Origin: Candidatus Saccharimonadota bacterium
Lineage (GTDB): Bacteria > Patescibacteriota > Saccharimonadia > Saccharimonadales > Saccharimonadaceae
Assembly: GCA_017514765.1 (NCBI GenBank)
Contig: JAFWIU010000005.1
Span: 1-52,854 of the forward strand
Direction of reading: 5' to 3'
DNA: 52,854 nucleotides
In this document: piece after piece, positions 40,519 to 52,198 of the stretch
Layout: the number at the start of each line of letters is the position of its first letter
Position numbering within the stretch: the stretch's first letter is position 1
Program-made: the position numbers and the translations under genes
The notes under the pieces: model-generated
What the model saw: only the letters and a program-made list of their open reading frames with translations
The model's database searches: none
What the model was told of the DNA's origin: nothing

Positions 40519-42027
40519 TTAGAAATTTGGCAACACCGCCAGAATCATCGGTAACAAATAAACATGTAAAGCATTTGGTAAACCAGAGAAGAACATCAAT
40601 GAAGCTCCGTACGACACTAATAATCCTAAAAGCATCACTCTAGTTGATTTCTTCCAAACAGCCTTGAATATCAATATTAAAGTTAATACAAATAGGGAAA
40701 CACCAATCAATCCAGTTTCAAGCAACAAAGAAGCATATTCATTTTGCACAATCTCTTTAGGCGCAGGGGACAACCCATTATTATATAATGCAAATCCTGC
40801 ACCCCCCAATCCCACGCCAAATATCATATTAGACCAACTTTGCGACCATACTTCCATCGCTGCACCAGACAATCTCACCCGTGTATCTGTCGATTCTGCC
40901 ACATATCCCCCAAAAACCGCCTCTTCCTTCTCGAAGTTTTCCACAGAGTTTTCCACAAGCACAAATTCATCCTCTTTCAATTCCCCCTCCATATTTTCCG
41001 TTTCAATATCTTCATTGATAGGTTTATCAACCCTAATATCAATCACCCCAAGCGACAAATGATTGATCACCTTCGCCACCCCATCGTAATATGTATCACT
41101 CGTCGGTCCCATCTCTGCCATCAAACCCTGTAGATTTAATATCGCTACAAAAGAGAGCACTATTAACCCCCATACTACTCCCACCCGCTTCACCATCAAT
41201 CGTCTTTCCTTCTGTCTTATTCCAAAAATCACAAAACCACTCATAAACAGCATCCCAACCACAAACGCATAAATCGCCCCCCGCGAAAACGTCAAGAATA
41301 GTGTTGCCACGAAGACGATTGGCAATAGTACTTTGAGGACATTTCGGAGGTCACGACCGAGACTTAGGGCGCTCCGCCCGTGACGACGGGCCGGAGCGAC
41401 CCATGTCCGAAAAGTACTATTGCAATCGTCTTCTAAGAAAAGCCATATACTTGCCATTATCGGTGCCAGGAGCAAATTTCCCATAAATTGTGGCTCTATT
41501 GCAAACCCATTCGGATGCGGAAACCCAAACATATGATATGTACATCCATCGCACATCAGGGAATACTCCTGACCCACTCCCGCAAGATCAAGTATACACT
41601 GCACTACACACCACACGCATATCACCAATGTCGAACCAAAGAACCACTTCAACCACAATAATTTAAATCCATCATCCAACCAATCTTTCACTAACCACAT
41701 CACATAGCCCGCCAAATACAGCAACCACATTATCCCCACTGTCAGCACTCCTCGTACCACATTAAGCGACCATATTACCGACAAAGTCACCCACACAGGG
41801 AATAGTAGCCACAGCCACCTCCATCCCTTCAGCCAATCGAATAGTTTTCGTCTTTGTATTAATATCACCACGCCCACCGCATCAAACACTACAAGCCAAA
41901 TCAAAGGCAGGGAAAGCTCAAAATTCATCGATTCGCTACTTCCCAGTTTAATCAACGGCCAATACGAAAAGAATAATGTCGATGGCAATATATACAACAA
42001 AGACCTAGTTAACTTTTTTATCCACAT
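40519..42027 (-). CDS. O-antigen ligase/polymerase-like membrane protein carrying an in-frame palindromic insert
   Basis: 502 residues with about ten membrane helices and the Wzy/WaaL pattern: FLTFSRGAIYAFVVGM (the conserved SRG after a helix), a large external loop (about 290-410) and QNEYASLLLETGLIGVSLFVL near the end. It should join lipid-linked glycan units outside the membrane. Residues 199-239 (41311-41433) come from a 123-bp GC-rich palindrome and give a basic, charged segment (RTWVAPARRHGRSALSLGRD) between two helices, which looks foreign to the family. The first 23 nt overlap the end of the GT4 gene, so it is in the glycan operon. Confidence 0.78.
   Translation of the reverse strand: MWIKKLTRSLLYILPSTLFFSYWPLIKLGSSESMNFELSLPLIWLVVFDAVGVVILIQRRKLFDWLKGWRWLWLLFPVWVTLSVIWSLNVVRGVLTVGIMWLLYLAGYVMWLVKDWLDDGFKLLWLKWFFGSTLVICVWCVVQCILDLAGVGQEYSLMCDGCTYHMFGFPHPNGFAIEPQFMGNLLLAPIMASIWLFLEDDCNSTFRTWVAPARRHGRSALSLGRDLRNVLKVLLPIVFVATLFLTFSRGAIYAFVVGMLFMSGFVIFGIRQKERRLMVKRVGVVWGLIVLSFVAILNLQGLMAEMGPTSDTYYDGVAKVINHLSLGVIDIRVDKPINEDIETENMEGELKEDEFVLVENSVENFEKEEAVFGGYVAESTDTRVRLSGAAMEVWSQSWSNMIFGVGLGGAGFALYNNGLSPAPKEIVQNEYASLLLETGLIGVSLFVLTLILIFKAVWKKSTRVMLLGLLVSYGASLMFFSGLPNALHVYLLPMILAVLPNF
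41311..41433. repeat. 123-bp in-frame palindromic element
   Basis: Outer arms 41311-41334 and 41411-41433 form a 23-bp inverted repeat with a single bulged G. Inside are a 6-bp stem (41337-41342/41403-41408) and a strong GC-rich hairpin (41370-41381/41386-41398, 12 bp with one bulge, loop 41382-41385). The length is exactly 41 codons with no stop in the reading frame. It resembles Rickettsia-type palindromic elements in architecture, not in any sequence I can confirm. Confidence 0.75.
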
Positions 42028-52090: not shown

Positions 52091-52198
52091 AACTTACAAC
52101 CAAACTCTTCCAAATCGGAATTAGATAAACCCCGAAGCAACCGTTTCGGGGTTTATCTAGCCGCACAGAAGCAACCACAAAAGCATTCACGGCGGCTA
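52083..52198 (+). promoter_or_regulatory. Mutually exclusive hairpins in the exporter leader
   Basis: TTATCTAA (52083-52090) can pair with TTAGATAA (52121-52128). The latter is also part of a 15-bp perfect hairpin (52122-52136/52145-52159), and a third stem (52158-52164/52192-52198) follows 22 nt before the ribosome binding site. Only one of the first two can form at a time. No T run follows, so control of translation or RNA stability is more likely than termination. Confidence 0.6.

Follow-up and report, generated by a model that had tools for sequence, protein, structure and literature searches.

A probable dispersed palindromic element read in frame within housekeeping genes of one Saccharibacteria genus

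A 123-bp palindrome contained in frame in an O-antigen-ligase-like gene of a Saccharibacteria genome is likely (with a probability that we put at about 0.7) to be a family A copy of a dispersed, non-autonomous palindromic element that is spreading within one genus of this lineage. The element has a Y-shaped conserved core of about 75 nt, which occurs in many copies per genome and is intact in nearly all of them. It is found inserted in either orientation and in all six frames, within permissive loops of housekeeping proteins or between genes. In genes, the insert is presumably tolerated as a translated, flexible in-frame peptide, as inferred from open frames in the absence of proteome data.

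The palindrome of the window and its host gene

The window, that is, the whole stretch of 52,854 nt that was analysed, comes from Candidatus Saccharimonadota bacterium, a small rumen-type bacterium (GTDB lineage Patescibacteriota; Saccharimonadia; Saccharimonadales; Saccharimonadaceae), and corresponds to positions 1-52,854 of the forward strand of contig JAFWIU010000005.1 (assembly GCA_017514765.1). The palindrome ( Table 1 ) is the top-scoring spaced inverted repeat of this 53-kb window, in which two inverted repeats score 15 or more, compared with none in five shuffles. Its outer arms are paired over 23 bp with one bulged G and are followed inwards by an internal loop, a 6-bp stem (GGACAT, 41337-41342, with ATGTCC, 41403-41408) and a 12-bp GC-rich hairpin. 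This architecture had been described in a first-pass annotation, made from the sequence alone, and held as described, except that a second, small hairpin of the core had been omitted; this hairpin turns the core into a three-way junction and gives it its Y shape. The minimum free energy of the palindrome is -47.7 kcal/mol when folded as DNA (z -10.6) and -78 kcal/mol when folded as RNA (z -9.4), and in neither case did any of 200 shuffles reach a value as low. The covariance model of family A, described below, recovers one copy in the window. Elsewhere in the window, a perfect 15-bp inverted repeat with an 8-nt loop (TAGATAAACCCCGAA/TTCGGGGTTTATCTA) was noted at 52122-52159, and is likely to be a terminator-like hairpin.

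Table 1. Features of the window and loci of families B and E.
Feature	Position or loci	Strand	Remarks
Whole palindrome	41311-41433	-	123 bp, 41 codons, approximately residues 199-239
Host gene, O-antigen-ligase-like membrane protein	40519-42027	-	502 aa; Pfam Wzy_C; element in frame
Conserved core of family A	41331-41413	-	covariance model 95.4 bits; Y-shaped, two hairpins on basal stem
12-bp GC-rich core hairpin	41367-41402	-	conserved apical CCCGTCGTCACGGG, coding strand
Second, small core hairpin	41345-41359	-	conserved CTCGGTCGTAACCTCCG in family consensus
Copy-specific arm, gene 3' side (LKVLLPIVF)	41311-41334	-	inferred native
Copy-specific arm, gene 5' side (EDDCNST)	41411-41433	-	reverse complement of 3' arm; inferred inverted copy
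Family B	L040, L041, L047, L048, L049, L052, L066, L078, L081, L097, L101, L115, L034
Family E	L036:47-217, L039:2339-2503, L275, L248

The host protein matches the O-antigen ligase domain Wzy_C (PF04932; 37.3 bits against a cut-off of 31.7), and its reading frame runs uninterrupted across the palindrome. In the AlphaFold2 model of this protein (mean pLDDT 81), residues 201-225 are predicted to be disordered and to lie between helices 187-199 and 223-246, in agreement with the earlier claim that the palindrome adds a basic segment between two membrane helices. The arm on the 3' side of the gene is presumably native, since it falls in the predicted transmembrane helix 223-246 and aligns with insert-free orthologues, and the arm on the 5' side is inferred, by analogy with the PcrA insertions presented below, to be its inverted copy. 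The net gain of the window copy over core-less loops is only about 81 nt, suggesting that some target sequence was probably lost. In a separate observation, residues 333-367 of the same protein (~40927-41031, minus strand) form a further region of low confidence; it is very acidic, the alignments of many orthologues are interrupted there as well, and it could possibly represent another variable insert region.

Dispersal of the core and its private arms

DNA searches with the element recovered matches in 94 of 147 genomes of the genus and, among 247 genomes of the order, in no other genus. At the protein level, matches to the insert residues alone fall at unrelated sites of other genomes. Built from 58 cores and providing only rough E-values, a covariance model of the ~75-nt GC-rich core detected 27 copies in this genome, 25 of them full-length, and of the genomes sampled it matched 41 of 42 in the genus and none of 28 in other genera of the order. 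The expectation of the first-pass annotation that further copies would occur in the genome was therefore met, most of them lying in frame in housekeeping genes. An unbiased scan for inverted repeats in 813 kb of fetched loci retrieved 65 distinct repeats, compared with none in shuffles; given that these loci had been chosen for the element or its host genes, this density is not representative. The genomes are mostly metagenome assemblies and, in the absence of a tree, copy counts do not separate independent from inherited insertions.

Inside open frames that continue on both sides lie 70 of 116 sampled family A copies, in both orientations and in all six frames. Eleven of the other 46 copies have long open runs on both sides in the same strand; the eight of these that were inspected are all located between adjacent genes, and none breaks a gene. 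In the genome of the window, 22 of the 25 full-length copies occur in open frames. Assignment of genic status is based on open frames and flanking homology, without protein data. The hosts in this genome, as classified by NCBIfam and Pfam, include the synthetases IleS and ValS (two places each), LeuS, ArgS and PheT, together with DNA polymerase I (PolA), LigA, LepA, ObgE, GatA, TsaD and QueA. Further hosts classified in this way include a cysteine desulfurase, an RsuA-type pseudouridine synthase, TatD and a methyltransferase (two places), and Der was identified as a host via its orthologues.

Conservation is limited to the core, and the two flanks of each copy pair mutually and differ in nearly every copy. 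The arms align with a score of at least 12 in 102 of the 116 copies, versus 0.9% of random combinations of a left flank and a right flank from different copies. They extend 21-25 nt beyond the core (interquartile range), and the other core types have private arms too. On this point the first-pass annotation needs correction, the repeated unit not being the whole 123 bp: only the core is repeated, and the outer arms are copy-specific, one of them being, by inference, host sequence. Copies L120, L124 and L138, at apparently the same intergenic place, were also observed to have arms that are different yet self-matching.

Arm mismatches of the genic copies, read on the mRNA strand, amount to 9 G-U and 25 A-C, and in the core stems 15 of 19 pairs have changed on both sides, with almost no one-sided change. 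Selection for mRNA folding would be expected to make G-U frequent. Since G-U is not favoured on the mRNA strand, mRNA folding is not what keeps the arms paired, and the few G-U mismatches together with the two-sided core changes indicate that pairing is made or kept at the DNA level. On the top strand of the core, the arms of all 116 family A copies show 43 A-C and 12 G-T mismatches (p 3e-5, an optimistic value because copies share ancestry). The A-C excess on this strand implies G-T on the bottom one, a hint, and no more than that, that the bottom strand may be the one that folds single-stranded as the active form.

Insertion sites and a proposed fold-back mechanism

Orthologues of the host gene were fetched from the same genus, and 87 of them were comparable at the insert loop. 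Approximately 35 have a short loop of 123-150 nt without insert, and others hold different palindromic inserts, at most 180 nt long and unrelated in sequence. As some orthologues are empty and others differently occupied at the same loop, the segment of the window is an insertion, as had been claimed initially. Of the two results that would have refuted that claim, namely the same 41 residues in all homologues and the lack of any other copy in the genome, neither was obtained, which supports the interpretation.

Several distinct core types, here called A-G, are present within the genus, and at least five of them are held by the host-gene loop: A (that of the window), B, C (a relative of A), D and G. 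Type B is represented at this loop by 13 members, which are read in two frames in different species and whose arms at this one site differ between species and match within each. Family B is also larger, having a 117-nt core and a total length of about 170-190 nt at the same loop. Three orthologues of the host gene (L046, L083 and L091) contain a hairpin without a core, and L075 contains a near-perfect hairpin that retains only the ends of the B core, indicating that cores can be deleted. Relics were recognized in PcrA (L295), in Der (L252) and in the window's gene (L075 and L046).

The adjoining glycosyltransferase gene is a second hot spot, occupied by types A, D, E and F and by core-less hairpins. 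Family E, with a core of ~121 nt that includes CGCTGGACCGCGGGCAGAACCGCCC, has members in PcrA and Der as well as in the glycosyltransferase. Among 36 orthologous segments of Der, most have an insert in the interdomain linker, either of type A, which is present in both orientations, or of another type, and the linker is plainly empty (41-49 aa) in only about seven; the net gain is approximately the length of the core. Segments L242 and L248 of Der, together with relic L252, present different cores inside similar or homologous arms at one site. Net lengths are ambiguous in the window's gene, the neighbouring glycosyltransferase and Der, since their native loops vary in length. In addition, the apical loop of the A/C core of L050, L214 and L245 harbours, still in frame, a nested mini-insert (TTCGCGYCCCAAGGGGCGAGC together with a small variable hairpin of its own), one element thus lying inside another.

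Evidence on the origin of the arms comes mainly from PcrA/UvrD. In this protein 21 empty orthologues run W-K-L-L...P-P-R-S-F-M-P-Y-M-G-T-F-H over 31-45 aa (median 38). The left arm of L130, L202, L271, L272 and L275 consists of the native W.LL stretch, and their right arm reproduces it as the reverse complement (17 of 17 bases in L272 and 25 of 25 in L275), followed by the native gene once more; in L271 the SRSFM codons are missing at the return point. Compared with the median empty site, L130 and L202 are longer by 96 nt, equal to the core (75) plus one arm (21). The sixth copy, L268, has both arms within a variable stretch and is uninformative. Best inverted-repeat scores are 5-8 in the empty orthologues and 10-25 in the six occupied ones, and the empty PcrA orthologues have no hairpin at the insertion site. 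The structure in PcrA is flank U, core, inverted flank U' and the rest of the gene (D). That one arm is native and the other copied is clear only in this gene, in five of six copies, and the claim rests mainly on it. For Der and the window's gene the gain in length comes closer to that of the core alone, so that either part of the target must have been lost or both arms were partly native.

A clean pair of empty and filled sites was sought among orthologous pairs of more than ~77% DNA identity in the fetched loci and none was found; the usable pair, L058 versus L060, has diverged too far for both junctions to be located exactly. The insertion event itself is inferred, no donor and target pair differing by a single recent insertion having been found. 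In the mechanism proposed here, the core would be joined to a 3' end of the target, its self-complementary end would fold back as a primer, and U would be copied into U', after which synthesis would switch back to the chromosome. This may happen at a staggered break of ~21 nt, which, if capped by the hairpin, would fix the arm length. Copies would survive in genes when their net length is a multiple of three and no stop occurs in the host frame, those not meeting these conditions persisting only between genes, and later internal deletion of the core would leave short in-frame hairpins. Subsequent templated repair may preserve or lengthen the arms, and pre-existing hairpins may attract later insertions.

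No candidate enzyme was identified: the Y1 transposase (PF01797) is absent from this genome and occurs in one of 36 genomes of the genus, and reverse transcriptase (PF00078) is absent from this 99%-complete genome and from the copy-rich genomes G018, G025, G026 and G056. Reverse transcriptases, mostly of ~350-480 aa, were observed in 39 of 60 genomes of the genus (L297-L300 and others), at up to several places per genome. A bolder reading is that these are a class of mobile coding palindromes of a CPR genus which use a new route, the fold-back copying of ~21-25 bp of target without a known transposase, by which each insertion acquires private inverted arms, and which have extended much of the essential translation and replication machinery with additional peptides; we consider this slightly less likely than not.

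Of the alternative explanations, the one that competes most closely supposes that pairing of the arms arose after insertion, or is preserved, through templated repair of an imperfect palindrome (quasipalindrome correction). The strict Watson-Crick pairing and two-sided changes of the core stems are in line with this, as are the different, self-matching arms of L120, L124 and L138 and the B-family arms that vary between species at one site while matching within each. However, arm length is fairly uniform, chance flanks would begin unpaired, and correction alone leaves the PcrA net gain of core plus one arm unexplained, so that we lean against it, and it may well act on top of fold-back insertion, as a possible additional process. 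Insertion into the loops of pre-existing hairpins, with both arms being target sequence and only the core being new, appears unlikely. It would account for the different cores within similar arms in Der (L242, L248 and relic L252), the several families at one loop of the window's gene, the mini-inserts nested in the apical loops of L050, L214 and L245 and the core-length net gain in Der, but empty PcrA genes have no such hairpin, the second arm there is the reverse complement of the conserved W.LL codons, and long hairpins are otherwise very rare in the window.

That the palindrome is a selected structured RNA, whether it acts in regulation or is skipped in or spliced out of the mRNA, is very improbable. 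Its strong fold, two conserved apical loops and covariation could be taken in favour, but G-U is not favoured on the mRNA strand (9 versus 25 A-C), genic copies occur in both orientations and all frames, and the frames are open with lengths divisible by three, a constraint that splicing or bypassing would not impose. Searches of Rfam gave no credible match over the elements in 11 loci. Nearly as remote is a REP/RAYT-type repeat or an ordinary MITE mobilized by a known transposase via conserved terminal inverted repeats; the element is indeed palindromic, short, dispersed and non-coding by itself, yet the Y1 transposase is absent here and found in one of 36 genomes of the genus, and the outer inverted repeats are copy-specific, without a conserved terminus. 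An ordinary stretch of protein whose palindrome is due to chance, or an artefact of assembly, can practically be ruled out: no supporting point was found, and against it stand the DNA fold (z -10.6), the 27 genomic copies and the presence of the family at conserved gene positions in many genomes that were assembled independently. A chance palindrome had also been rejected because shuffles do not reproduce the fold or the inverted repeats.

Comparison with known palindromic elements

Intragenic MITEs and enterobacterial repeats (ERIC, RU) are small and non-autonomous and can fuse in frame with genes (PMC10969869; PMC2759123). The Saccharibacteria element differs from them in lacking a conserved terminal inverted repeat, in that the flank duplication seen in PcrA is inverted and not direct, and in that most sampled copies are genic. 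REPs with their RAYT (Y1) are likewise GC-rich dispersed palindromes, but they are extragenic, whereas the Saccharibacteria copies are mostly intragenic and this genome has no Y1 transposase. Long perfect inverted repeats inside translated genes, with both arms coding, are found in mitochondrial genes of Nematomorpha (PMC6649704); the abstract of that work describes no dispersed mobile core, in contrast to the shared core and one new inverted arm seen here. Mitochondrial repetitive or double-hairpin elements are thought to be mobile and are mostly intergenic, sometimes occurring in coding or rRNA genes (PMC2800124). These are organellar and are not, as a rule, translated in frame, and no sequence comparison with them was made.

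The closest likeness is to the Rickettsia palindromic elements (RPE), which are short (~150 bp) and palindromic, form several families per genome and lie in frame in unrelated genes (PMC10969869), and to the Wolbachia palindromic elements (WPE), WPE-like inserts without stops being described in addA, addB and priA (PMC4224334). Shared features are a palindrome of ~100-150 bp in multiple copies per genome (here 123 bp and 27 matches), in-frame location in unrelated genes (here 22 of 25 full-length copies, most hosts having been named) and several families in the same genomes (here core types A-G in the genus). In contrast, the element studied here belongs to one Saccharibacteria genus, the sampled core being found in no other genus of the order, and its arms are private to each copy and half native in PcrA, with six frames used; RPE arms were not compared. 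By analogy, the Saccharibacteria element would work like RPE and WPE, and membership is not shown, there being no sequence homology data. The likeness to Rickettsia elements drawn by the first-pass annotation thus held for the mode of action, and descent is not claimed. Its statement that such elements had not been reported for CPR also stands, in that no report in Saccharibacteria or CPR was found in the literature searched, which covered few subscription journals.

Essential enzymes (several tRNA synthetases, DNA polymerase I, DNA ligase and GTPases) carry acquired peptide inserts, their translation being inferred from open frames, and such inserts bear on annotation, on structure prediction and on how proteins gain new loops. 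The many orthologous sites across related species make the insertion mechanism testable by comparison of empty and filled sites. Most known in-frame coding palindromes come from Rickettsiales, and their mode of movement is, to our knowledge, not established. Next to them, the Saccharibacteria represent a second, apparently independent and much richer case, in a lineage of ultra-small genomes.
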